A stretch of DNA of 64,000 bases from Psychrobacter sp. JB385. GTDB lineage: Bacteria > Pseudomonadota > Gammaproteobacteria > Pseudomonadales > Moraxellaceae. The notes beneath the pieces were generated by a model. It was not told the origin of the DNA, did not search any database, and saw only the letters and a list, made by a program, of their open reading frames with translations. The stretch covers positions 434,001-498,000 of the forward strand of contig NZ_FUKN01000014.1 in NCBI RefSeq assembly GCF_900163785.1. The letters run 5' to 3'. Shown here piece by piece: positions 4,120 to 20,666 of this stretch (position 1 is its first letter; every line of letters begins with the position of its first letter). A program made the position numbers and the translations under genes.

Positions 4120-4653
4120 ATGACTGACACAAACCCTGTGAATACAACACTAAAGTACACCATAGATTCTGCCAATGTTCAGGCAAATGATACGCACGAT
4201 AATAAAACTGTTTTTCAGCAACGCAGTGTAATAAGCCGATCCAATCAGTCAGGTTTTACCCTTATTGAGATTATGGTGGTCATTGTTATTTTGGCCATTC
4301 TTGCGGGCTTAGTAGTACCAAAGGTAGTTGGGCAGAGTGATAAAGCTCGCGTTAAAACGACTGAGACTGCGCTGGCTACGGTATCAAATGCGCTCGATAT
4401 GTATAAGGTAGATAATTCACGTTATCCGACCACGGCACAAGGGCTAGAAGCGCTGACTACGCCACCCGCCGAGGCCAAAAATTATCCCGATGGTGGTTAT
4501 ATTAAAGGGGGCTATCCAACGGATGGCTGGGAGAATGAGCTGCAATATGTAGCACCAGGTAGTGAAGGCCGACCTTACGATTTATTTTCATTGGGGGCAG
4601 ATGGTCAGCAGGGCGGTGAAGGTCAAGATGCTGATATTTATGCCACGTTATAA
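4120..4653 (+). CDS. gspG: Type II secretion major pseudopilin GspG, with unusually long leader
   Basis: GspG is the major pseudopilin, polymerised in the periplasm by the type II secretion machine. The prepilin peptidase site is SG/FTLIEIMVV, followed by the hydrophobic helix VIVILAILAGLVVPKVVG. The mature domain has the family hallmarks YPTTAQGLEALTTPP, a GYPTDGW segment, and FSLGADGQQGGEGQDADI, which matches the calcium-binding loop of GspG. The start is uncertain. The ATG at 4120 gives 177 aa and a 44-residue leader, while further in-frame starts lie at 4108, 4093, 4018, 3997 and TTG 3964. No start lies closer to the cleavage site, whereas usual leaders are about 6-20 residues. A strong terminator follows at 4747-4779. 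The identity is secure and the N-terminus is not. Confidence 0.85.
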   Translation: MTDTNPVNTTLKYTIDSANVQANDTHDNKTVFQQRSVISRSNQSGFTLIEIMVVIVILAILAGLVVPKVVGQSDKARVKTTETALATVSNALDMYKVDNSRYPTTAQGLEALTTPPAEAKNYPDGGYIKGGYPTDGWENELQYVAPGSEGRPYDLFSLGADGQQGGEGQDADIYATL

Positions 4654-4746
4654 GTTTTAGACTCGTCAATGCAAAAACCTTGGCAGCAAGAAATTTTCTG
4701 ATATGTGGCTTGTTTACCGACTAAGTCATGTCCGACAATCGCTATA

Positions 4747-4779
4747 CATCAATCAATCCTATGATTGGTTGATGTTTTT
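4747..4779 (+). terminator. Rho-independent terminator after gspG
   Basis: A 12-bp stem (CATCAATCAATC paired with GATTGGTTGATG, one G-T pair) closes a four-base loop and is followed by TTTTT. Confidence 0.8.
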
Positions 4780-4822
4780 ATCAGTAGATAAAATAAGCGC
4801 CATTTCATATATATTCTTACGT

Positions 4823-4858
4823 TTTAAGACAGTTCTATTATTTAAGATAGTCCTATTA
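4823..4858 (+). repeat. Tandem 18-bp direct repeat
   Basis: TTTAAGACAGTTCTATTA is followed directly by TTTAAGATAGTCCTATTA, two copies with two differences. It lies about 97 nt before the start of the stand-alone DsbD-alpha gene. It could be a double operator or simple slippage, and the sequence does not decide. Confidence 0.6.
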
Positions 4859-4954
4859 TAGGATTTTAGACATTGATGGCAACGACTTCGCTGTTGTCAG
4901 AGTCGCTAGGTTTTAATCAACTGTCATCGTAAGTAGACATTAAGGTAATTACTC

Positions 4955-5518
4955 ATGTTAATTGAAATACCAACAACGACACCCATGACTACAGGCAAAT
5001 GTCATTCTAAACAGTCTGGTAAGTTTGCTATCGTGAGTGCCGCGCTGATCGCCGCTTTGTCGATGGTATCCATCAATGCTCAGGCAGCAGGGTTAAATGA
5101 GCTGTTTGGCAACAATAATGCTGCGCAGTCCAAGTTTTTGCCTGTAGAGCAAGCGTTCCAAGTAAGTACCATGACCAAAGCGACCGCCAAGGGTACGCAG
5201 TTATCCATCAATTTTGACATCACGCCTGGTCATTATGTGTACAAAAATCAGCTGACGTTGAACTTTCCTAAAGGGGTGAGTGCAGCGCCTTTTACCTTTA
5301 GCCAATCGCCTGTTTCTATCGATGATCCTACGTTTGGTAAAGTGCCTGTATTTACGCAAAAAAATATGGTGGCGACTACCACACTAACCACCAAGAATGG
5401 TAAAGCTGCAAAAAATGTCCCTGTGGTGATCGGTTGGCAAGGCTGCGCCAAAGCAGGATTGTGCTATCCACCAGAAAAACTTAAAACCACAGTCAATATT
5501 GCTGTAACACGCAAATAA
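4955..5518 (+). CDS. Stand-alone periplasmic DsbD alpha-domain protein (duplicate of the DsbD N-terminus)
   Basis: This is a 187-residue exported protein. A signal peptide (about residues 1-46, ending SINAQAA) is followed by a single DsbD alpha (DsbC_N/PF11412-type) immunoglobulin-like domain. The cysteine pair of that domain is present in GCAKAGLCYPPEK (Cys164 and Cys170). In full DsbD these cysteines receive electrons from the membrane domain and pass them to DsbC and similar partners. The protein closely resembles the first 200 residues or so of the dsbD product next door: LPVEQAFQVS, FDITPGHYVYK, IDDPTFG and the Cys motif are all shared. It therefore arose by tandem duplication. It has no membrane or thioredoxin part of its own. 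AAGG lies 9 nt before ATG 4955, and a later ATG at 4985 is possible. The gap to dsbD is 66 nt, which suggests co-expression. Its role as an extra reductant shuttle is inferred. Confidence 0.85.
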   Translation: MLIEIPTTTPMTTGKCHSKQSGKFAIVSAALIAALSMVSINAQAAGLNELFGNNNAAQSKFLPVEQAFQVSTMTKATAKGTQLSINFDITPGHYVYKNQLTLNFPKGVSAAPFTFSQSPVSIDDPTFGKVPVFTQKNMVATTTLTTKNGKAAKNVPVVIGWQGCAKAGLCYPPEKLKTTVNIAVTRK

Positions 5519-5584
5519 ACATTGTATAAATTGGCTCGAATATTAGTAGTGAATAGAATGTTAGCAATAAATAGGGAGCCTGCC

Positions 5585-7723
5585 ATGTCTACCAAATCAA
5601 TAGAAAAAACCGCATCGCTAACAGTAAGCAATTCTTCTAAAAGATCCTATCTACTGGCATTTGTTGTAAGCAGCAGCTCATTAGTGGCTGGGCTGTTACC
5701 AACAGCGTTTGTCGCAACAGGATTGACTGCGACATCGACCATGACGCAAGCGGCGGGATTAGGTGATTTATTTGGCAACGATCAAAGTGGTGCAAAGTCA
5801 GAGTTTTTGCCAGTAGAGCAAGCGTTTCAAGTCAGTAGCAGTAGCAGCGCTGCCAAGTCTGGTACGCGCTTGGCCATCAACTTTGATATCACACCCGGTC
5901 ATTACGTTTATAAAGACCAAATAAAGCTCACTTTGCCTGCTGGCGTGAGTGCAGCGCCTTTTAGCTTTAGTCAATCGCCCATTTCAATCGATGATCCAAC
6001 TTTTGGTCAAGTACCAGTATTTGATCAAGCCAACATGATTGCGACCACGCTTTTGACCAATACTAGTGGCAAAAGCTTAGACAATGCCGCTGTGGTGATT
6101 GGGTGGCAAGGCTGTGCCAAAGCAGGGCTTTGTTATCCACCAGAAAAAATCAAAACCACAGTCAACATTGCAACGACTGGCGAGACACCAGCGAACGGCG
6201 CAGTAGCAGCGAATACAGCAACGTCCAATTTGGTTGATGCCAGTAGTCTAGAGACTGAAGCAAGCAACACTGACGCAGATAGTGTGGCAGATGACGACGT
6301 TGTTGATTATGCGTTAATGGATGACGTGGCTTTAGAGGGCGAGCTTGCAGCAACCAATGCTATCTCTGGTGCTGATGGTAAGGTTACCAGTAGCAGCACG
6401 ATGAACAACGCTGCCACAAACGATGTAACCCTTGCTTCTCAAAATGCGGTCGATGGCGACCCCTTTGGTTTGGCGTCTCATCCTTGGTTGGCATTGGTAT
6501 TACTATTTTTGGCAGGGCTTGGCTTGGCTTTAACGCCATGCGTATTACCCATGCTACCTATCGTTGCCAATATCGTTGCCCGTGAAGAAAACCCAACGGT
6601 AAAACGCGGTGTCATCTTGACCACCAGCTACGCCATTGGGGTGGCTATCGCTTACGGTATTTTAGGTGCGCTGATTGCTGTGTTTGGTGAGTCGTTAGGG
6701 ATTATTGGTTGGTTACAAAACCCTATTATCCTTATTAGCTTTGCTATTATTTTTGTTCTACTGGCCTTATACATGCTGGGCGTGTTTAGCATTCGCTTAC
6801 CACGTGCTCTTAGTAATAAGATGCAAGGCTTGAGTCAAGCGGGCGATAGTAAGCTTGGTAGTGCAGGCGGCAGTTTACTTGCTGGATTTTTGTCAGCCTT
6901 GGTGGTGTCACCTTGTGTGTCCGCGCCGCTGTTTGGTGCGCTTTTAGCCGTGTCTACGATTGGTAATCCATTGCTGGGTTTTGCAGCGTTATTCATGCTT
7001 GGTTTTGGTTTATCAGCCCCGCTTATCTTAATCGGCGCGACCCAAGGCAAGATCATGCCAAAAGCTGGCGAATGGATGAATTGGGTTAAGATCGGTTTTG
7101 CTTTGTTACTCTTTGCCGTTGCCCTATTATTGATCGAACGGGTCTTTATTTCACCCGTCATGCTGATGGTGTGGGCATTGTGGTTTATGGTCGTTGCAAC
7201 ATGGGCGTGGAGCTGGCTTGGTAAAGGTCGTCTGCTCACTCAAGCGCTGGGCTTAGTGGTTGGTATCTGGGCGGTGTGTTTGATAATAGGCGCAGCATTG
7301 GGCAATGATGATAGCTTACATCCTCTGGCGTCATTAAGTGCAGCACCCATGATGCAATCGGCAAATGGTCAGCCAGTAATCAGCAGTGGTGCGGCGGACA
7401 AAAACATTACCACGCTTGCCGAGCTTGATTCAATCATTGCCGAAAATCCAAAAGTAATCGTTGATCTGACAGCAGACTGGTGCGTTGAATGTCGCATCAT
7501 GGACAAGAATTTATTTCACAATCGTCCAGCACAAATGCAAGATTGGCAGTTGGTCAAACTTGATATCACAGAAACGACTGCAGATTCTAAAGCGGTACTC
7601 GCTCGTTACAAGTTATTTGGGCCACCTGCTTTACTCTATTATAGAGATGGTCAATTTGTTCAGCAGCAAGTAGGCGAGATTGCCCGTGCTGATTTTGAGC
7701 AGACACTGACAAGTCTGAACTAA
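5585..7723 (+). CDS. dsbD: Thiol:disulfide interchange protein DsbD
   Basis: DsbD carries electrons from cytoplasmic thioredoxin across the inner membrane to periplasmic DsbC and cytochrome c maturation proteins. All three modules are visible. After a signal peptide comes the alpha domain with GCAKAGLCYPP (Cys177/183). An acidic, Ala/Thr-rich linker (about 210-295) leads to a membrane domain of about eight helices (300-600) with the paired catalytic cysteines in LTPCVLPM (Cys319) and VSPCVSAPL (Cys444). The C-terminal thioredoxin-like domain has DWCVEC (Cys633/636). The ATG at 5585 is preferred to an upstream in-frame TTG at 5522 because AGGGAG lies about 7 nt before it. At 712 aa it is longer than E. 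coli DsbD (565), mainly because of the linker. A terminator follows. Confidence 0.95.
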   Translation: MSTKSIEKTASLTVSNSSKRSYLLAFVVSSSSLVAGLLPTAFVATGLTATSTMTQAAGLGDLFGNDQSGAKSEFLPVEQAFQVSSSSSAAKSGTRLAINFDITPGHYVYKDQIKLTLPAGVSAAPFSFSQSPISIDDPTFGQVPVFDQANMIATTLLTNTSGKSLDNAAVVIGWQGCAKAGLCYPPEKIKTTVNIATTGETPANGAVAANTATSNLVDASSLETEASNTDADSVADDDVVDYALMDDVALEGELAATNAISGADGKVTSSSTMNNAATNDVTLASQNAVDGDPFGLASHPWLALVLLFLAGLGLALTPCVLPMLPIVANIVAREENPTVKRGVILTTSYAIGVAIAYGILGALIAVFGESLGIIGWLQNPIILISFAIIFVLLALYMLGVFSIRLPRALSNKMQGLSQAGDSKLGSAGGSLLAGFLSALVVSPCVSAPLFGALLAVSTIGNPLLGFAALFMLGFGLSAPLILIGATQGKIMPKAGEWMNWVKIGFALLLFAVALLLIERVFISPVMLMVWALWFMVVATWAWSWLGKGRLLTQALGLVVGIWAVCLIIGAALGNDDSLHPLASLSAAPMMQSANGQPVISSGAADKNITTLAELDSIIAENPKVIVDLTADWCVECRIMDKNLFHNRPAQMQDWQLVKLDITETTADSKAVLARYKLFGPPALLYYRDGQFVQQQVGEIARADFEQTLTSLN

Positions 7724-7765
7724 TACTTAACAAAACTTGTTCAGCTGTATTTAAATCTAAAGAAT

Positions 7766-7810
7766 AAAAAAAGCCAATACACCATTGAGATCGTGTATTG
7801 GCTTTTTTGA
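7766..7810 (+). terminator. Rho-independent terminator after dsbD
   Basis: AAAAAAAGCCAATACA pairs with TGTATTGGCTTTTTT around a short loop. The A-run and T-run could make it work in both directions. Confidence 0.85.
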
Positions 7811-7940
7811 TGTACTTAAAAATTTATAACCAAACCGCTGGTTTAGATACGATTTTATCCATTTACATTTGTATTATATAGCGATAACGCTAGTATAGTG
7901 TCTATCTTTTCACTACAATAAAGCAACAATACTGAAGGAG

Positions 7941-7957
7941 CATTACATATTGTAATG
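7941..7957. promoter_or_regulatory. Perfect 7-bp inverted repeat, possible operator
   Basis: CATTACA TAT TGTAATG is a perfect 17-bp dyad about 115 nt before the pldA start. The arms resemble a dimeric-repressor site, but no regulator can be named. Confidence 0.35.
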
Positions 7958-8072
7958 ACCACCTTTGATGTCCATATATCATTGATTTTTAGCTCTAGCA
8001 ATGCTATCGATGGCCATATTCATTATCTTATATACTCTGCTGCCGATACGGTCAGTTAGATAAAGGACACTT

Positions 8073-9503
8073 ATGTTTTCCCATACTACTCCGCAGCGTC
8101 CGTCTATGGATATTATCAAAACACGCAAAAATAGCTTACCTCAGATGAATAAACATCATTTGAGCATTGCTGTTGGGATTGCCCTCAGTTGTTTTGCTGT
8201 ACAAGCACAAGCTGCTCAAACTTATAATGAGTTGCCAATACCAGAAACGGCACTTAAATATGATAATGGCAGTTTGGCACAAGGTGCTGTGCAGCCAGCA
8301 ATGACTGCTAAGCCGGTAACGACTACTCAGAATCGCCAAATGCTTGTTGATCAGCAAGCTAAGTTATTTTTTGATTGTACTCAAGTGCAGACCAGTGCTG
8401 CGCGTCTGGCTTGCTTTGACAAAGTGGCGGCAGAAGGTGCCACGCCGAGCTATGTCAACAACAAACAAGCAGTCGATTTGGCAAAAACCTTTAAAACGAC
8501 GATTTCAGGCAATCCGCAATTCGTTTTTAGTGAAGAAAATGCCAAAGCTGTTGCCGCAGATACTACAGCGACTGATCTCAGTGCCAATGACGAAACTACG
8601 GACGGCCTAGATACGGTTGGGCTGACGCAAAGAGAAGCCGAAGTATTAGAAGACGTGGGTGTGAGCCAGACAGATATAGAAAAATATACACCGCTTAGCC
8701 TATCCTATGATCTTGATAAAAATAGTGAGCGCGGCACTTGGACCGTTCGACCATACCGCCCGACCTATATATTGCCCTTATTTTATACCTTTGATCCGAA
8801 CTTAGGGCCGAGTACGCCATCACAGCCCGAAGAGCCTTATACCTCTAACGATGTACGCAATACTGAGCTAAAATTCCAGTTGTCTTTGAAGAGCAAAGTG
8901 GCTGAAGACTTATTTGATACCAATGCGGATTTATGGTTTGGTTATACGCAAGAGTCGCATTGGCAGGTCTATAATGAAGACAACTCTCGACCTTTCCGTG
9001 CCACGGACTATCAGCCTGAGATATTTTTGACGCAACCAGTGACGGCTGATTTACCATTTGGCGGGCGTTTACGTATGTTAGGCGCGGGTGCAGTTCACCA
9101 TTCGAATGGTCAAGACGATCCATTATCACGCTCATGGAACCGTGCTTATTTGATGGCAGGTGCTGAGTGGGGCAAATTGTCAGTAATACCGCGTCTATGG
9201 ACTCGAATCAGCAATGAAAGAGCCAATGAAGATGACAATCCAGATATCGAAGATTTCATGGGTTATGGTGATGTTAAATTCCTATATGATTTAGCGAATC
9301 AGCAGAGCATCAGCGGTACTTTACGCTACAATCCAAGTACCAGTAAAGGGGCTGCACAAATTGATTATGTGTATCCGTTGACCAAAAACGTCAATGGTTT
9401 TGTGCAGGTATTCCAAGGTTATGGCGAATCTCTCATAGATTACAATCATGAAAACACGTCTATTGGCTTTGGTATCGTACTCAATGATTGGAAAGGTTTT
9501 TAA
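8073..9503 (+). CDS. pldA: Outer-membrane phospholipase A (PldA/OMPLA)
   Basis: PldA is a calcium-dependent, dimerising beta-barrel phospholipase that hydrolyses phospholipids misplaced in the outer leaflet of the outer membrane. The active site is visible as VHHSNGQDD (about residues 341-349), the His-x-Ser-x-Gly motif, with the supporting Asn in RSWNRAY shortly after. The barrel part starts around residue 225 (WTVRPYRPTYILP) and runs to the C-terminus, with alternating strands and NTELKFQLSLK-like text. The protein is 476 aa against about 290 in E. coli. The extra length is an N-terminal region after the signal peptide (cleavage near AQAA) that contains a LFFDCTQVQTSAARLACFDKVA segment with two Cys. 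AAGGA precedes ATG 8073, and 8106 and 8145 are later possible starts. comF follows after 21 nt. Confidence 0.9.
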   Translation: MFSHTTPQRPSMDIIKTRKNSLPQMNKHHLSIAVGIALSCFAVQAQAAQTYNELPIPETALKYDNGSLAQGAVQPAMTAKPVTTTQNRQMLVDQQAKLFFDCTQVQTSAARLACFDKVAAEGATPSYVNNKQAVDLAKTFKTTISGNPQFVFSEENAKAVAADTTATDLSANDETTDGLDTVGLTQREAEVLEDVGVSQTDIEKYTPLSLSYDLDKNSERGTWTVRPYRPTYILPLFYTFDPNLGPSTPSQPEEPYTSNDVRNTELKFQLSLKSKVAEDLFDTNADLWFGYTQESHWQVYNEDNSRPFRATDYQPEIFLTQPVTADLPFGGRLRMLGAGAVHHSNGQDDPLSRSWNRAYLMAGAEWGKLSVIPRLWTRISNERANEDDNPDIEDFMGYGDVKFLYDLANQQSISGTLRYNPSTSKGAAQIDYVYPLTKNVNGFVQVFQGYGESLIDYNHENTSIGFGIVLNDWKGF

Positions 9504-9524
9504 TCGCATCAACGTGTAGAGTGA

Positions 9525-10352
9525 ATGATGCGTTATTTGGCTCCTTATCAAACAGGATTATGGCTGGCAGAGTATTTCGACATACGCTGCCAGCTTTGTC
9601 GTACCTATCGTAGCGTACCGCAAGCTCAGCTTGCACACGCTAATTCATCACAGGATGTAGAAAGTAGGGGTGATGCGGCTACCCAATTTTTACCAAGCCG
9701 TCCTTCTTTGATTGCCAAATATCGCCAACGCTTTAATAATGGTCTGCTTTGTAAACACTGTCATCATAGTATCACTTGGTTACCTAAGCCTTTTACGGTA
9801 GATATCGCTGCAGGCACTATCTTACCGATTCAAGCTGCTACCTATTACGACTACCCGATACGGCAAGCGATTAGAGCGTTCAAATACCATGAGAATATGA
9901 CCAAGCTGCCATTATTGCTACATATCTTACGTCAGCTGCCACGTCCTCACGGCTGTCACAAAAACAATAGTGTGATTGTTGCGATGCCAACGACTGAGCA
10001 ACGATTGATCAAGCGCGGCTTTGACCCTGTGCTTGTTTTGGCCACCCAATTGTCTAAACACTGGCAAATACCACTATGGCAAGGCGTCGCACGTATTGAC
10101 AATACGGTCAGTCAGCAAGGCTTGACACGAGCGGAGCGCTTAAGCAATTTGGACAATGCTTTTGCTTTGATTGAGAAGCCCCCTGTTAAGCGTCTCTTAT
10201 TGTTCGATGATGTAGCAACGACAGGTGCCAGTTTGCAGGCGTTGGGGCAAGCCATATGCAGTCAAACAATGCCTTTAACCAGCGATGAATCACATACTAC
10301 AGACTACTATCATATTCGTGCCTATGCGTTAGCTCATGGTAGCCAATCCTAA
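9525..10352 (+). CDS. comF: ComF-family phosphoribosyltransferase-like competence protein
   Basis: ComF proteins are cytoplasmic phosphoribosyltransferase-fold proteins needed for processing incoming DNA in natural transformation; the E. coli relative is GntX. Near the N-terminus lie two Cys pairs, CQLC (about residue 23) and CKHC (about residue 78), which match the zinc-binding double-zinc-ribbon part. The C-terminal half has the PRTase nucleotide site LLLFDDVATTGASL and the AMPTTEQRLIKRGFDPVLVLA segment typical of the family. Length 275 aa is slightly above usual because of a spacer between the Cys pairs. Two ATG codons in tandem (9525 and 9528) are both possible. It lies 21 nt after pldA and just before the pilus operon, which fits a competence role. 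Confidence 0.88.
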   Translation: MMRYLAPYQTGLWLAEYFDIRCQLCRTYRSVPQAQLAHANSSQDVESRGDAATQFLPSRPSLIAKYRQRFNNGLLCKHCHHSITWLPKPFTVDIAAGTILPIQAATYYDYPIRQAIRAFKYHENMTKLPLLLHILRQLPRPHGCHKNNSVIVAMPTTEQRLIKRGFDPVLVLATQLSKHWQIPLWQGVARIDNTVSQQGLTRAERLSNLDNAFALIEKPPVKRLLLFDDVATTGASLQALGQAICSQTMPLTSDESHTTDYYHIRAYALAHGSQS

Positions 10353-13880: not shown

Positions 13881-16800
13881 ATGAAACTTATCCGATCTAC
13901 CCCGCCGTTATCAAAACAGTTTCGTCCTACTGCTGTAGTCATAGCGGTAGCGACTTTAATGGCTTCATCAGCAATGACCCAAGCAGGGACAAGCTATAAC
14001 GGATTTGGTGATGTAAGCTATAACAAACTTGGTGATTTGACGATCTATCAGGCAAGTACTGAATCCAATAAACCTACCTTGACGCTTATGCTCGATAAAT
14101 CAGGCAGTATGGGTGGTAGCGTTAGTTTTCAAGAAGATGAAACATATAGAAGCAGCCGTGTACACCGAGCCTACACTCGAGATTGTACTCGATATTGGGG
14201 TAATGGTAGTTGCAGAGAGTACGGAAATTATAAGTACTTTCACTATCATAGTTCTAACGATGTGCCCTCCAATCAGACATATGAAGGATATTTTACTCAA
14301 GATCCATATACAGCACCTGAGTTAAAAGGTGAAGGCAATCAAGTCTGTATTATGAGTTATAATTCGAACTCAGTGTATTCAGATTTCTATAATCCCATAG
14401 CTGAGTACCGTAATAATGTTCGATTGGAGTACTGCTTAAAAGGCAACGAAAGAGTCTATGATCGGATGTCTAAGCTTAAATTGGCTATCATAGAACTATT
14501 AAATTTCAAGAATGTCAACGAAGACATTATCATGGGTGTTGGAGCATTTGGTTACACTAATTCTCTTGGGAAGGTAACGGTAGCAGCTAAACCTTTGGAT
14601 GCTGACCAGAAAGAAAGAATCTATGCGTTTTTAAGGGGCTTGAGTCCCAGTGGTGGTACACCTATGGCACCAGCATTTACAGATGCTGGGGCGTATATGC
14701 TAGGTACGACAACTTATTCAGGTGGTAGTACATATAGTGGTATGCGCTCAACAGCTGATCAATCTATTGCTAAAAACAACAAGTACATCGCACCAGAAAC
14801 GCAGGAGTGTGGAGCAAAAGGGGTTTACTTGTTAACAGATGGTTTTCCCAACGGGGTCTCTAGTCAAAGTTCATTAACGAACATGATGGGAGATGCATTG
14901 GGTACGTCAAGCTTATCTTGCCCTGCTTCAGGCGGCTTATTACAAGGGAGTGATGGAGAAAGTCGATGGCAATGTATGGGCGAGTTTGCAAAACAGTTAA
15001 GAACAAAACGACAAGTTACCACAGCGATGGTGGGTTTTGGTAGCTCGTTTAACGTGGTTGATAACCCTGCCAACTACACCTCAGTAGAGCGTACTATCGA
15101 CAGATTTAAAGACGCCAATGGCAATTCCTATAAATATAATAAAAAATATTACGATTGTTCTCAAATTCCTACCTCCAATCCTGACGCACGCAATGCGTGT
15201 AACTTAGGTATGGAATCTGGTAAATACGATGATGTTGGTGGTTATGGACAGGGCGGTTTTTATTTTGCTAAAGATACCAAAGATATCGTTGGTAGTGTTT
15301 TATCTGTGATACAAGAGTTAAAAATGGATCTCCCAAGCACACCTGCAGGAACTATTACAGTGCCACAAGATCCTTTAAACAGCCTTGGCGTCAAGCCCTA
15401 TGCTTATTTGCCGATGTTAGAACCCAAGGTCGGTAGTGATGCGGCAATATGGGCTGGGAACTTAAAAAAATACAATGTCAAGCAAGGGACATTATACGGG
15501 CAAGGAAATAAAAGACTTTATATAGATGAAGATGGTGACGGCTTCCCAGATGATCTAAATCCTGATGCTCAAGATATTTGGAGCAAACGTAATGAAACGG
15601 CGCTTAATGCAGCAGGTGCTAGCGTCAATATAAACAATAGGATTACAGCGGGTGGCTTTTATGCCCAACTAAAAACACCAAAGAAATCAGATAATACATC
15701 GCGTAATGTATATGTCGAAAGCAATAATACACTAGTAAAAGTAGGTGTTTCTGCTGGGAAATTAGTTGGATTTGACACATTAGACAATTCTTACACAACG
15801 CTGAAAAAGCTATATCTACTAAGTTTCTTAGGTTATGACGCAAGTCCAACCCAAGCCGAGGCTGATCGTATCGGTACTAGCGCTGCGAAAGTGAAAACTG
15901 AGTTTGAAAAAATAATAGCCAACCCCCCAGGGGATATCAAAGTACTAGGCGGTGTCATACATTCAAGACCTACACTAATTACTTACGGTGCCAATATCAA
16001 TGCAGCAGATAAAGACAGCAATAACGATGGTAAGGTTGATGCTGATGCAGGTATGGTCGCCACAGATGAAAGCAGTCGCGATGATTATGTAATGTTTGGC
16101 TCAATGGAGGGTGCGCTTCATATCGCATCAGCAGAAACTGGTCAAGAAAGTTTTGCCTTTATTCCAAAAACTATTCTTGATGGGCAGATACAAGCGCTAC
16201 AGCCTGCTAGTACTATCTCAAATGCACCTACTTTTGGTGTCGATGCTCCATGGTCAGTGCAAGGAAGCTACAAGTATGACTTTAGTGCACCTACCTCTCA
16301 ATCCTCTGGAAAAATTACAGCTGACCAAGTATATGTATACGGTGGTTTACGTCAGGGGGGTAAAGGACTTTACGGATTAGATGTGAGTAATCTGAATGCG
16401 CCAAGAATGCTATTTAGCTTAAATGAAAGAACAGAAGGATATCAAGCATTAGGCAAAGCATGGAGCGAACCTGTCACAGGTAGAATTAGAGTCGGTACAG
16501 GCAGAAATAGTATTAGAGACGTTATTATCTTTGGTGGTGGCTATGATGAATGCTATGAAGACCCCACGTTCCGCTTAGGAGTTTCGGATAACAAATTTAG
16601 CGAATGTAATGCTAAATCTATGGCAGATGGCAATGCCGTGTATATTGCTGATGCCAGAACTGGTGCTGTACTATGGTCAATTTCAGGTCGCGACTCAGGC
16701 GCTTCTGGTAGGCATATCAAAGTACCAGAAATGAAGCATAGTGTGGTGGGCAAAATTACCACGCTAGATCGTGATGACGACGGTATGATAGACCATCTAT

Positions 16801-17870
16801 ATTTTGCTGACTTAGGCGGACAGGCATTCCGTGTAGATTTGCGCAATGGACAAAATATTAGTGGTAGTGCTGGAAGTAATAATTTTACTCGCCGTATCGT
16901 AAGAGTGCTCAATGCAAGTGGTGATGACAAAAGTGATGCTAATTCAAAAACACTTCTTAAGCAAGGGTTACAGCCGCGTTTCTATGGTCAGCCTTCAGTG
17001 AGTTTTTATAAAGATAGTGGGGTTTTATTTGCCTTAATAAATATTGCCTCTGGTGATAGAAGCAATCCAATATCTCGTTTACGCAATACCATACCAAGTC
17101 AGTCTGATAAGTTGTTCGGTATTATAGATAGAGACGTTGCTAGTCAAGGATTATATGCAGAAGACGCCTCGGTATCTTTAATAACTAAAGATTTGACGAT
17201 AAGTAATTTAACAGAAATGCCTTTCAATAAAGTGGCTGGGGCGACCAAAACGAGCGTACAAGCAAGCATGCGTCCAAATGTTGCGACCAAGCAAGGCTGG
17301 TACTATCCGCTGAATTTATTTGATGGATATAACCAAGTTAAAAATGTTAAATCTATGGGTGATGGTCTAGCGCTAGGTGGGCTTTACTACATGACAGCTT
17401 ATAGCCCAGAGATGAAATATGAAGAGACGAGTGGCTGCGCGGCACAAATTGTCGGTGGTTCAGAGCGCCAGATATACTGTCTACCTTATGGGGTCTGTGA
17501 ACAAAGTGATACTACAAAAACTGATAACTCATTAAATGGGACAGGTGGATTTATACGTGCAGGCAAAGGCATTCAAGAACTCGCGTTTGGTGCTTTTGAT
17601 GAAAGAAACCCTACTAGCCGCATCATGTTAGGCCCACAATCATTCAATGAGCTTGTATCTTATAACGATCGTATTGGTTTTGATGTGGGGATGACGACAG
17701 GTGTGTCTGGAATTGATACCAGATGCCCTGGTGGTAACTGTAGTGGCTCAAGTGTTGATAAGAATAAAAAAAATGGCAATGGTTCAGGAAATATTGACGT
17801 TAATACGATGAGTTATCGCCTGTTTAATACAAGATGGTATGAGCAGCTAGCGGAGTCTATAGATGAATAG
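13881..17870 (+). CDS. pilY1: Type IV pilus tip adhesin PilY1 (PilC family)
   Basis: PilY1 is the large secreted tip adhesin of type IVa pili, and it also controls retraction and surface sensing. After a signal peptide (cleavage near TQAG, residue 36) a von Willebrand A-type domain is marked by LMLDKSGSMGGS (Asp72, a MIDAS-like motif) and reaches about residue 480. The C-terminal half is the PilY1/Neisseria PilC beta-propeller (about 620-1250), with VLGGVIHSRPTLI, FGSMEGALH and YVYGGLRQGGKGLYGLDVS. Calcium-loop motifs occur three times: DEDGDGFPDD, DSNNDGKVDAD and DRDDDGMIDHLYFADLGG (about residue 963), the last matching the retraction-control site of Pseudomonas PilY1. Length is 1329 aa and many Cys are present. 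AGGAA precedes the ATG. The stop overlaps the next pilin gene. Confidence 0.93.
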   Translation: MKLIRSTPPLSKQFRPTAVVIAVATLMASSAMTQAGTSYNGFGDVSYNKLGDLTIYQASTESNKPTLTLMLDKSGSMGGSVSFQEDETYRSSRVHRAYTRDCTRYWGNGSCREYGNYKYFHYHSSNDVPSNQTYEGYFTQDPYTAPELKGEGNQVCIMSYNSNSVYSDFYNPIAEYRNNVRLEYCLKGNERVYDRMSKLKLAIIELLNFKNVNEDIIMGVGAFGYTNSLGKVTVAAKPLDADQKERIYAFLRGLSPSGGTPMAPAFTDAGAYMLGTTTYSGGSTYSGMRSTADQSIAKNNKYIAPETQECGAKGVYLLTDGFPNGVSSQSSLTNMMGDALGTSSLSCPASGGLLQGSDGESRWQCMGEFAKQLRTKRQVTTAMVGFGSSFNVVDNPANYTSVERTIDRFKDANGNSYKYNKKYYDCSQIPTSNPDARNACNLGMESGKYDDVGGYGQGGFYFAKDTKDIVGSVLSVIQELKMDLPSTPAGTITVPQDPLNSLGVKPYAYLPMLEPKVGSDAAIWAGNLKKYNVKQGTLYGQGNKRLYIDEDGDGFPDDLNPDAQDIWSKRNETALNAAGASVNINNRITAGGFYAQLKTPKKSDNTSRNVYVESNNTLVKVGVSAGKLVGFDTLDNSYTTLKKLYLLSFLGYDASPTQAEADRIGTSAAKVKTEFEKIIANPPGDIKVLGGVIHSRPTLITYGANINAADKDSNNDGKVDADAGMVATDESSRDDYVMFGSMEGALHIASAETGQESFAFIPKTILDGQIQALQPASTISNAPTFGVDAPWSVQGSYKYDFSAPTSQSSGKITADQVYVYGGLRQGGKGLYGLDVSNLNAPRMLFSLNERTEGYQALGKAWSEPVTGRIRVGTGRNSIRDVIIFGGGYDECYEDPTFRLGVSDNKFSECNAKSMADGNAVYIADARTGAVLWSISGRDSGASGRHIKVPEMKHSVVGKITTLDRDDDGMIDHLYFADLGGQAFRVDLRNGQNISGSAGSNNFTRRIVRVLNASGDDKSDANSKTLLKQGLQPRFYGQPSVSFYKDSGVLFALINIASGDRSNPISRLRNTIPSQSDKLFGIIDRDVASQGLYAEDASVSLITKDLTISNLTEMPFNKVAGATKTSVQASMRPNVATKQGWYYPLNLFDGYNQVKNVKSMGDGLALGGLYYMTAYSPEMKYEETSGCAAQIVGGSERQIYCLPYGVCEQSDTTKTDNSLNGTGGFIRAGKGIQELAFGAFDERNPTSRIMLGPQSFNELVSYNDRIGFDVGMTTGVSGIDTRCPGGNCSGSSVDKNKKNGNGSGNIDVNTMSYRLFNTRWYEQLAESIDE

Positions 17871-18480
17871 GCAAGGCTTTACATCAAAGCATGCATTAAT
17901 GGCGAATAAGGAAGACCATTATTCAAATTCAATATTTGGCTTGAATGACACAAAAATGCAGAAAGGCTTTACGCTCATTGAAGTGATGATAGTAGTTTTT
18001 ATCTTAGCTATTTTGGCTGCTATAGCTGTCCCAAGCTATCGACACTACATTGTTGTAAATGCTGAACGAGACACACAAGCGAAGATGTTACAACTACAGT
18101 TGGAACTTGAGCGTTGGCGTGCAAGTGCATTGACATATAAGAACTTCAAGCCAAAAAGGATTGATGCTAATGGTAATGCCAATTATGATTATGCAGATGT
18201 AGGCACTAACACTATTGTAAATATCCCTGCCAGTAGTGGAGATAATTATACTTATCGCATCACCCTGGTGGATGGGGGTACGTCTAAAAGCTTAGTTGCA
18301 GGGGCAGGTGTTGATAATGTGACAGGTCGAACGTGGAAAATGTTGGCAGTGCCTAATCCTACAAAGTATGTCAAAAATGGTCATAATATGATGCTGACCA
18401 GTTCTGGCGTCAGATGTATGACGACAAGCGCGCTGACGGTGGGACTAAAAGATTGTGGTAACGATTCTCAAGTCTGGTGA
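17863..18480 (+). CDS. pilE: PilE-like minor pilin
   Basis: A type IV pilin of the PilE class, the last component in Pseudomonas-like minor-pilin operons, where PilE connects the tip complex to the shaft. The cleavage site is [32 protein letters not shown]. The pattern ERDTQAKMLQLQLELERWRAS after the helix is typical of PilE/ComP-type minor pilins. Two Cys lie near the C-terminus. ATG 17863 overlaps the pilY1 stop and has a GGAG 8-11 nt upstream, giving a 35-residue leader. An ATG at 17956 would give the usual four-residue leader but has no ribosome site, so the start is unsettled. At 205 aa it is longer than the next pilin. Confidence 0.82.
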   Translation: MNRQGFTSKHALMANKEDHYSNSIFGLNDTKMQKGFTLIEVMIVVFILAILAAIAVPSYRHYIVVNAERDTQAKMLQLQLELERWRASALTYKNFKPKRIDANGNANYDYADVGTNTIVNIPASSGDNYTYRITLVDGGTSKSLVAGAGVDNVTGRTWKMLAVPNPTKYVKNGHNMMLTSSGVRCMTTSALTVGLKDCGNDSQVW

Positions 18481-18920
18481 TGATGATGACTAGTATAGAC
18501 AAAAATATGAACCAAGGTTTTACCTTGATAGAGCTGCTTATTGTAGTGGCTATTATTGGGATTTTAGCTGCGATTGCTTATCCCAGCTATCTGGGCTATA
18601 TCGAAAAAGGTATGCGTACTGATATGATGGGGGAGATGCATAGCATTGCCAGCACTATCGAGAGTCGAAAACTGGCACAAGGCAAGTATAACAGCATTGT
18701 TACTACAGATTTAAGTGGTGCTTATCCCAAACAAGGAGAGGCGCAATATACCGTGAGTATCCGTCCTAATCCTCTGACATCTCAGTGGACAATTGAGGCC
18801 AAACCCAAATCGAATACAAGAATGAAAAATGACGGTACGCTGACATTAGATTATCAAGGTATTAAATGTCGAAATAAAAACACCGATAAAAAATGTGGCA
18901 GTGGCGATGAGTGGAAATGA
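18480..18920 (+). CDS. PilE/ComP-like type IV pilin, second copy
   Basis: A second PilE-class pilin with cleavage at [35 protein letters not shown]. The remainder (SIASTIESRKLAQGKY, YTVSIRPNPLTSQWTIEAKP) matches the PilE_1/ComP family, whose members include the DNA-uptake receptor of Neisseria. A disulfide pair is likely between the two C-terminal Cys (IKCRN and KKCGS). Three consecutive ATG codons (18480, 18483, 18486) follow directly on the upstream gene's stop (TGATG), so translation is coupled; an ATG at 18507 would give a minimal leader. Whether it binds DNA cannot be told from the sequence. It ends the operon, and no terminator is obvious after it. Confidence 0.82.
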   Translation: MMMTSIDKNMNQGFTLIELLIVVAIIGILAAIAYPSYLGYIEKGMRTDMMGEMHSIASTIESRKLAQGKYNSIVTTDLSGAYPKQGEAQYTVSIRPNPLTSQWTIEAKPKSNTRMKNDGTLTLDYQGIKCRNKNTDKKCGSGDEWK

Positions 18921-19229
18921 GTCGTTAGCAGTTAAAACCATAGACTGACAAAAAACGTCAAACACAGCATAAAATTGCCATCGATAATTTTGTTCACTGA
19001 CAATTTTAAGTAACTAAAGTGTAACGAAGGTAATTCATTGTAATTAAAAGTTCGATAAAAAGTCTATTTATGAGTAAATTGACGATATCTACTAAGATTT
19101 TTCATGAAAGAATACGATTGGTTATAATGTGGCATACTAACTGCAACAATTATAATAAGAGAAACATTAAATTTATAGCTGGTGAGTAGATAAGCCTTCT
19201 ACTGCCATATTATCCAAAAGGACATGTCT
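18921..19229. other. Promoter region of the first small pilin
   Basis: This AT-rich region separates the minor-pilin operon from the small pilin gene. It contains the best -24/-12 element of the window (19130-19146). No gene is seen. Confidence 0.5.
19130..19146 (+). promoter_or_regulatory. Candidate sigma-54 (-24/-12) promoter of the first small pilin
   Basis: TGGCATACTAACTGCAA matches the RpoN consensus TGGCAC-N5-TTGC well, with GG and GC 10 nt apart. Transcription would begin near 19156, leaving a leader of about 75 nt. Major pilins in Pseudomonas are RpoN/PilR-dependent, which supports the reading. Confidence 0.6.
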
Positions 19230-19577
19230 ATGAACGCTCAAAAAGGTTTTACCTTAATCGAACTAATGATCGTTGTTGCTATTATCGGTATCCTAGCGGC
19301 GATCGCTATTCCTGCTTATCAGAACTATACTAAACGTGCAGTTGATAATCAGTGCTTAGCCTCTACTAATAACTATACTAATCAGTTGAACTTATTCAGA
19401 AACGATCCTAATGGTGATACTCCTGAACCTGATGCTGCAGATTTTACAACTGAACATTGTACAGTAACTGCGCCAGCAGATGATGCAGAAACAGTAGTAG
19501 GTGCAATTGCTGCTAATAAAGGTCAGAGTTCGACAGCAACATGTACAATTGCTACAGGTAAATGTGTTCTAGCCTAA
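19230..19577 (+). CDS. Small type IV pilin (major-pilin-like N-terminus)
   Basis: A 115-residue prepilin with the minimal leader MNAQKG and a textbook major-pilin helix, [27 protein letters not shown]. The head domain is short (about 80 residues) and acidic, with three Cys ([22 protein letters not shown] region gives further ones near the end). ATG 19230 is preferred over ATG 19224 because AAAAGGA ends only one base before 19224 and sits 7 nt from 19230. It is monocistronic: its own -24/-12 promoter upstream and a strong terminator after it. It resembles the next gene in layout (short head, NDP near the middle, paired Cys). It could be the major pilin, but classical PilA is nearer 140-160 aa. 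Confidence 0.85.
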
Positions 19578-19614
19578 ATATAAGCTAGCCTTGCTATTTA
19601 AACGTGATTAATGT

Positions 19615-19650
19615 AAAAAAAGCTAAACAGAAATGTTTAGCTTTTTTATA
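19615..19650 (+). terminator. Rho-independent terminator after the first small pilin
   Basis: AAAAAAGCTAAACA and TGTTTAGCTTTTTT form a perfect stem with a short loop and a T-run. Confidence 0.9.
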
Positions 19651-19818
19651 TTAGTTTTTAAAGTAAACGCGTATACAACATATTATAGTGATAGATACGA
19701 ATATTTTTCTTAAATATTTAGTAATAAATATGATATATCTATTGATGCAATTATTAGATAGTAAGTATGAAGTTTTATATTTGTAAGTTTTGATAAGCTA
19801 TAGTTAATATATGCTAAG

Positions 19819-19834
19819 TGGCATACTATGTAAC
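19819..19834 (+). promoter_or_regulatory. Degenerate -24/-12-like element before the second small pilin
   Basis: TGGCATACTATGTAAC repeats the first ten bases of the element at 19130 exactly, but the essential GC of the -12 half is replaced by AA. It could be a decayed or atypical RpoN site. Confidence 0.3.
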
Positions 19835-19859
19835 TATATAGAAAACTAGAGCTATTATT

Positions 19860-20237
19860 ATGAAAGTAACTCTTAACCGTTATCACATTTGGCAATCAGG
19901 ATTTACTTTAATAGAGTTGATGATTGTGTTAGTTATCATTGGTATATTAGCAGCCATCGCTATACCAGCCTACAACTCATATGTTGCAAGAGCACAAGGT
20001 AATGCTTGTGTATCAGAGGCAAGAAACTATAGTAGTCAGGTCTATCTATTAATTAATGATCCAGATATAGTCGTATTACCAATAGCGCCAGTAGTGAGTG
20101 CTTGCAAATCTATCACTGATGCGACAGGCTGGACGTTAGAGACACAGCAAAAAATCATCGCTATCGCAAAACCGCCTTCGAACGCACGTATTGAATGTGA
20201 TATTCCTAAAGGCACGCCTTGTATAATAAAACCTTAG
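19860..20237 (+). CDS. Small type IV pilin, second copy
   Basis: A 125-residue prepilin, cleaved at [36 protein letters not shown], with a 14-residue leader. The head carries four Cys ([22 protein letters not shown]), arranged like two disulfides. It shares with the preceding pilin the C-x(6-7)-NY(S/T)xQ pattern and an NDP motif, so the two are probably paralogues that diverged after tandem duplication. No clear ribosome site precedes the ATG. The upstream -24/-12-like sequence lacks the GC of the -12 half. A terminator follows. Whether it makes a separate fibre, modifies the main pilus or is poorly expressed cannot be read from the DNA. Confidence 0.83.
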
Positions 20238-20262
20238 TCTTCTATTTTAAGTTCACATGTAT

Positions 20263-20306
20263 AAAAAAACCACCTAAACGCATAGCGCCATTAGGTGGCT
20301 TTTTTA
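20263..20306. terminator. Bidirectional terminator between the second small pilin and fdxA
   Basis: AAAAAACCACCTAA pairs with TTAGGTGGCTTTTTT. The A-run and T-run on opposite sides suit both converging genes. Confidence 0.85.
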
Positions 20307-20342
20307 TTGTCTCAATATAGAATATTAAACCGTTCTAACCTG

Positions 20343-20666
20343 CTACTTCTCTAAATACTGAATCTTACCTTCCACACCATCCCACTTTTCAGCTTCTGGC
20401 ATTTGACCTTTCATCTCAGTGATGTTCGGCCATTTTTGTGCCAGCTCTTCGTTCAGCTGAGTGAACATCTCTTGTCCTTTTGGTACTTCGTCTTCTGAGA
20501 AGATGGCATTGGCCGGACATTCAGGCTCACATAGTGCGCAGTCGATACACTCATCAGGATCGATAACAAGGAAGTTTGGGCCTTCATAAAAGCAGTCCAC
20601 AGGACAGACTTCTACACAGTCGGTGTATTTGCAAAGAATGCAGTTATCTGTAACGACAAAGGTCAT
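20343..20666 (-). CDS. fdxA: Seven-iron ferredoxin FdxA
   Basis: A cytoplasmic [3Fe-4S][4Fe-4S] ferredoxin of 107 aa. The N-terminus [31 protein letters not shown] has the CxxxxxxCxxxCP set, with the deviation from CxxC that gives a 3Fe cluster. The second set is [16 protein letters not shown]. The C-terminal tail of about 45 residues ([13 protein letters not shown]) is characteristic of the Azotobacter FdI-like FdxA family. The gene begins only 35 nt from the inverted-repeat element at 20702-20969, so its promoter must lie in that short stretch, inside the element, or be read-through from mutS. Redox partners are not evident here. Confidence 0.95.

Follow-up and report, generated by a model that had tools for sequence, protein, structure and literature searches.

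How the two small pilins that lie in tandem beyond a minor-pilin operon of Psychrobacter are related to each other, and whether the second of them is in use, is the question raised by this locus. We followed it in a window of 64,000 nucleotides (the whole stretch of DNA analysed) and in the corresponding regions of related genomes.

The pilin pair and its promoters

The preliminary description placed two small pilins, of 115 and 125 residues, in tandem after the minor-pilin operon and noted a shared Cys/NYxxQ/NDP layout, all of which was borne out (Table 1). Each of the two predicted proteins, P1 and P2, contains four cysteines, with NNYTNQ...NDPNG in P1 and RNYSSQ...NDPDI in P2, and in an alignment of 11 small pilins these cysteines fall in register with four invariant cysteine columns. 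Both proteins pass the PF07963 cut-off and show the type IVa prepilin signal, with Gly-1, Phe1, Glu5, and a hydrophobic N-terminal helix. An alternative P1 start at ATG 19224 would yield 117 residues; an AGGA ribosome site favours the start at 19230. The P2 coding sequence is intact, and all of the residues that are invariant in its head type are kept. Pfam gives only N_methyl for P1 and P2, with no curated head-domain or full-length major-pilin model matched, and their NCBIfam matches are all below the cut-offs of the respective models except for the N-terminal TIGR02532. Single-sequence structure models, with mean pLDDT values of 63.8 and 63.0, were too poor to use. The genome holds 12 N_methyl matches, including P1 and P2, and the other ten were assigned by eye to four type II secretion pseudopilins, one fimT-like protein encoded elsewhere, and the five minor pilins of the operon. 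P1 and P2 are thus the sole major-pilin candidates found by the N_methyl model, and by this elimination P1 is likely the major pilin. The operon, with pilY1, runs from what we take to be fimT to pilE (names presumed except where a family is cited), and the genes on the right are presumably those of a ferredoxin and MutS, judged by their protein sequences. Both border genes, the minor pilin and the ferredoxin, served as anchors for locating the slot in congeners. The two pilin genes had been described as monocistronic, and the terminator hairpin predicted behind each of them agrees with this.

Table 1. Features of the pilin locus, in window coordinates.
Feature	Position	Strand	Description
Left border, last minor pilin gene of the presumed fimT-to-pilE operon	18477..18920	+	matches PF16732 ComP_DUS
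Intact RpoN (sigma-54) site of P1, TGGCATACTAACTGCA	19130..19145	+	84 bp before start codon
Hairpin in P1 mRNA leader, just upstream of ribosome site	19180..19207	+	z only -1.6 in the window
P1	19230..19577	+	115-aa prepilin, ATG at 19230 to stop at 19577; 6-aa leader, four cysteines, likely major pilin
Terminator hairpin after P1	19616..19647	+	z -8.1
Degenerate RpoN site of P2, TGGCATACTATGTAAC	19819..19834	+	25 bp before start codon, -12 GC missing
P2	19860..20237	+	125-aa prepilin, 14-aa leader, T111 head, coding sequence intact
Terminator hairpin after P2	about 20261..20307	+	z -5.1
Right border, presumed ferredoxin gene, then mutS	20343..20666	-	named from protein sequence

The strict RpoN pattern was defined as a GG-N10-GC element with TGGCAY and YGCW context. 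The good element attributed to the first pilin is a perfect site, TGGCATACTAACTGCA. The second pilin was said to repeat TGGCATACTA exactly with AA in place of the GC, and this is what TGGCATACTATGTAAC contains at the -12 position; no strict site was found within 230 bp upstream of P2. The pattern had 2 matches in the window versus 3.3 expected on both strands, so a match alone proves nothing. The 10-bp TGGCATACTA common to the two promoters occurs twice in the window, with 0.17 occurrences expected, and because TGGCAT is the constrained part of any RpoN site the freely shared sequence is ACTA only. One rpoN gene and six matches to the sigma-54-activator domain, three of them strong, are present in the genome. 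A sigma-70 scan gave 10 sites versus 7.4 expected, none of them convincing; a weak sigma-70-like site between P1 and P2, at 19657-19686, is at chance level.

The hairpin of the P1 leader was also observed in congeners. Aligned globally as RNA, 53 P1 leaders showed almost no common structure. When leaders were folded individually, 86 of 89 had, directly 5' of the ribosome site, a stem run of 7 or more pairs (with small bulges permitted), with a median z of -2.6 and 67% of the values below -2. The stems differ between species (TAAAGATAA/TTATCTTTA, TGGCAGTAGA/TCTACTGCCA, and TAAAGCCAT/ATGGCTTTA), which looks like covariation.

RpoN sites of the two slots across the genus

The same slot was fetched from 98 of 104 congeners, leaving out two without a match and four without a listed place. 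The fetched loci are designated by L numbers, and the second-slot head types T111, T134, T152, and T131 are named by mature length. A strict RpoN site was found in the 230 bp that precede 89 of the 97 first-slot pilins, window included, compared to a chance expectation of 0.046 per 230 bp. The eight pilins without such a site are those of six loci with the most divergent mutS (L051, L060, L068, L070, L074, and L095; 55-58% amino-acid identity), that of L129, where the first pilin is a minor pilin, and that of L056, which has GT for GC. At the second slot the strict site was found for 37 of 48 intact T111, T134, and T152 genes (window included), or 8 of 12 (window counted), 13 of 18, and 16 of 18, respectively, so that an own RpoN promoter is the usual state of P2 in the genus. 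Among the 11 genes without it, L126 has GGGCAT for TGGCAT, in which case the promoter may still be functional, and L083 has lost the -24 GG. The count of 48 excludes the T131 genes, two of five of which show the strict pattern about 160 bp away, as well as the relic in L086 and the P2 genes found by tblastn in L046, L089, L091, L113, L129, L133, and L138; a strict site lies upstream in L046, L089, and L091, and the other tblastn-found genes have none within 300 bp. The frequencies at the first and second slots differ with p values of 0.019 when all 97 first-slot pilins are used and 3e-5 when the six divergent-clade pilins and L129 are dropped (89/90). Losses of the RpoN site at P2 recur in the genus.

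Promoter decay at the second pilin, as had been proposed, is supported by the strict sites of the T111 congeners together with the window remnant that lacks the -12 GC. In T111 genes the strict site is located 34-41 bp before the start codon, closer to which the remnant lies. On this comparison of sites, P2 of the window most likely lost its RpoN promoter. The T111 genes examined in other genera have no own RpoN site close by, so the window P2 might never have had a full site.

A separate observation concerns L067 (G016), in which six pilin genes stand in a row within the slot at oriented positions 6351-10290. All but one of them are preceded by a strict RpoN site, which in four cases lies at the same distance of 131 bp.

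The small P1 and T111 P2 as a possible pair

The P2 of the window is of a type that accompanies small four-cysteine P1 pilins. All eight genomes with a small P1 and a typed P2 carry a T111 P2, compared to 3 of 44 genomes with another P1 (p 2e-7, uncorrected for descent). The mutS pairwise identities are 0.74-0.85 among six of the ten small-P1 genomes, namely those with mutS data. Other genera of the family also have a small P1 together with a T111-like gene, at other chromosomal places. In G130 and G255 the one RpoN site precedes P1 and a TfpZ-like gene follows (the name was tested for G130 only), the arrangement in G264 is similar, its second pilin being more distant (38%), G186 has a 620-aa gene between the small P1 and the T111-like gene, and G216 is cut by contig ends; apart from the cases just given, L255-L259 have one pilin each, with no T111 partner in the stretch. 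The P1 head itself is rare. Its best matches in 348 family genomes (G264, G216, and G241) are 57%, 52%, and 44% identical, respectively, and belong to another genus, whereas matches within the genus reach at most 39%; a sample of 390 genomes from the order gave no match other than G130 (38%) and the window's own. A T111 profile scan of named genomes gave 80 loci among the matches listed, mostly helix matches and none titled Psychrobacter.

This distribution favours co-transfer or co-adaptation of the small P1 and the T111 P2. We tentatively consider a co-selected pair that moved together between genera of the family, to different positions on the chromosome, and forms a two-pilin fibre, the second member being repeatedly switched on and off by gain or loss of its own RpoN site, with the window in the off state. 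A related reading has P2 active even here, by read-through or sigma-70 transcription, with the small pilins as a co-adapted pair. The intact P2 coding sequence, the 8/8 association, and the small-pilin pairs of G130, G255, and G264, each placed elsewhere with one RpoN site before P1, agree with an active P2, but a strong terminator separates the genes in the window, no convincing sigma-70 site precedes P2, T111 is also found with other P1 types, and the association takes no account of descent. We consider activity of P2 in this genome unlikely and favour a second pilin that is little expressed.

The preliminary description interpreted the two genes as a duplicated promoter-gene unit in which one promoter had decayed. 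The tandem order, the same four-cysteine layout, the identical TGGCATACTA, and the joint presence of small P1 and T111 P2 in 8/8 genomes having both are compatible with a recent tandem duplication, but the DNA shared by P1 and P2 extends over 80 nt only, mostly helix code, at 73% identity, and the helix third positions agree at 0.36, which is background. The P2 head is 45-61% identical to the T111 heads of 11 congeners and 41% identical over 29 aa to P1 of the window, and the leaders are unlike, that of P1 (84 bp) having a hairpin and that of P2 (25 bp) none. In 47 genomes the third positions of the P1 and P2 helices agreed at 0.381 within the same genome versus 0.376 between different genomes, and 693 of 2000 permutations reached the observed value. 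Head kinship, the helix-limited repeat, and the background third positions argue that P2 is not a recent copy of P1, and we regard a decaying duplicate of P1 and its promoter as very improbable; the interpretation as a duplicated unit is not supported.

Probable exchange of pilin heads between species

Comparisons with mutS cover 66 of 100 loci. For the 83 species pairs that reach 90% identity or more in mutS DNA, the P1 heads have a median identity of 24% and the promoter-leader-helix block of P1 one of 84%, with the head kept in some close pairs (98% in L080/L085 and 96% in L133/L138). Residue identity along P1 stands at 0.83-1.0 as far as mature residue 24, falls to 0.6 in residues 25-30, and is about 0.3 beyond. 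In consecutive six-codon blocks from the first mature codon on, P1 third positions agree at 0.89, 0.68, 0.68, and 0.63 for pairs with mutS below 0.80, versus 0.50 in mutS, and at 0.94, 0.76, 0.70, and 0.76 for close pairs, versus 0.84 in mutS. As the close-pair values lie mostly below that of mutS, the helix arm of P1 is not simply inherited; codon bias could contribute to the third-position conservation. At the second slot, the two members of a close pair share a head type in 8 of 28 cases, with 7.9 expected on permutation (16 genomes), and because the P2 helix is also poorly conserved in close pairs whole-gene replacement is suggested. The clearest candidate for a swap of the head only is L058 versus L075, with 93% identity in the P2 promoter-leader-helix block, 17% in the heads (T134 versus T111), and identity that returns at the terminator. 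Conserved flanks and helix combined with head divergence that does not follow descent, the pattern of allele exchange, were thus found between species. Head exchange between species is strongly indicated by these sequence comparisons, and we infer homologous recombination with conserved arms as the mechanism.

Exchange within one genome is another matter. In Neisseria, the pilE head varies while the N-terminal part is conserved, and the pilS copies are partial, promoterless donors that share head blocks with pilE. P2, unlike pilS, is complete and has a head family of its own, and among the 96 first-slot heads with any match none is more than 39% identical to a T111, T134, or T152 head; five first-slot heads match T131 heads at 43-51%, these being the P1 genes of the five T131-P2 genomes. 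No donor sharing head blocks with the expressed pilin, as in the Neisseria cassettes, was found in this comparison. A P2 that acts as a silent donor and alters P1 by gene conversion, in the manner of Neisseria antigenic variation, could make use of the shared helix code as one arm and would suit the lack of a working promoter here, but the head comparison, the promoters present at most second-slot genes, and the same-genome helices that are no closer than those of different genomes make it hardly credible. The variable pilin system that had been suggested therefore stands in part: the sequence pattern points to heads exchanged between species, and an antigenic reservoir inside the genome is not supported. 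An invertible segment of the Moraxella type, in which inverted repeats would enclose a switchable stretch spanning both genes, is not supported within 18900-20350, where only one 16-nt 88% pair (coding DNA), the terminator, and a palindrome were found.

P2 is often damaged in congeners. The helix is out of frame in L046, the gene is broken in L089, a relic in L086, and truncated in L129, and Glu5 is changed to Asp in L113. In L129 (G014, 4263-5945), the minor-pilin operon and P1 were not found, and a T111 pilin lacking its signal sequence comes immediately after a truncated minor pilin, which suggests a large deletion of type IV pilus genes.

We conclude that the region is probably a two-slot major-pilin locus, with P1 as the sigma-54-driven major pilin, P2 as a second pilin with its promoter lost and little expression here, and heads exchanged between species. 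Between the minor-pilin operon and ferredoxin-mutS, slot 1 would hold a major type IVa pilin that is conserved from species to species in its promoter, in its leader, and up to about mature residue 24, and that differs even between close species in its exposed head, most likely via homologous recombination with the DNA of other species. The second pilin, in slot 2, would belong to one of a small number of head types and would in most cases have a sigma-54 promoter of its own near the start codon. Close species appear to differ in this whole gene or, in one clear instance, in nothing but its head, and the gene is frequently damaged or was not found. The -12 element of the window P2 is gone, through a small deletion or through substitutions, and given the missing element the gene is probably either silent or expressed at a low level. 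The fibre would be built from P1, and any P2 that is expressed would serve as a minor component of the shaft or as an alternative fibre subunit. The P2 of the window is most likely a dispensable second pilin, probably little expressed.

In P. aeruginosa, pilin alleles are exchanged at one locus. As here, pilin groups I-V of that species, with the accessory genes TfpO/TfpW/TfpX/TfpY/TfpZ, have divergent heads at one locus (PMC11841053), and models of TfpX/TfpZ (NF041437) and of Wzy_C ligases are matched by genes linked to pilins in congeners and in other genera. The present locus is a two-slot variant of known pilin-allele loci; it differs from that of P. aeruginosa in that it has a second pilin slot, with an RpoN promoter of its own and few discrete head types, and in that the window holds no accessory gene. 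Tandem major-type pilin genes are also found in Legionella pneumophila, where monocistronic pilA2 and pilA1 lie 196 bp apart and PilA2 alone behaves as a major pilin. The Legionella pilins, however, are ~72% identical to each other, and likewise in all 55 other strains examined there, whereas the heads here are largely unrelated and variable between species (PMC13170364). As in Kingella kingae pilA1-pilA2, a second pilin of similar size adjoins the major pilin. The Kingella genes are co-transcribed from one promoter, whereas a terminator separates the genes here and P2 of congeners usually has its own RpoN site; Kingella PilA2 is present in purified pili and dispensable for biogenesis, adherence, and twitching (PMC12607826). 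Thermus thermophilus makes two pilins in one cell, PilA4 and PilA5, with wide and narrow pili (PMC7203116). Positions 15-106 of the T111 profile match the 111-aa PilA5 (6xxe and 8qqj; E about 1e-8), a distant likeness driven largely by the helix; two fibres are not indicated here. Among the titles listed by literature searches on Psychrobacter type IV pili and pilin none was on its pilin locus, and among those listed for pilin diversity, tandem pilins, and pilin exchange none described this locus; subscription journals were scarcely covered in either, and such absence is weak evidence of novelty.

The genus offers a natural experiment on pilin evolution, with heads exchanged on a conserved promoter, leader, and helix and with a second slot that has a few discrete families and its own switch. 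Comparison of close species could thus test selection on pilin heads by phages, surfaces, or DNA uptake, as well as the purpose of the second pilin; for the window alone, the second pilin is probably off.

Genes neighbouring the pilins vary as well. From P1 to the ferredoxin gene, the window contains no accessory gene. The P1-P2 gaps of congeners hold a TfpX/TfpZ-family gene (L059, which matched TfpZ on scanning the gap proteins), Wzy_C ligase-like genes (L073 and L043, which matched Wzy_C), and the gene for a beta-lactamase-fold protein (L108), an unexpected pilin neighbour of which similar genes were seen by eye in several other gaps. The pilY1 gene (window 13881-17870) is also variable in type among loci, being 69-78% identical to those of L044, L058, L072, L083, L088, and L139 and 27-48% identical to those of the remaining loci having pilY1 (best tblastn piece in each case).
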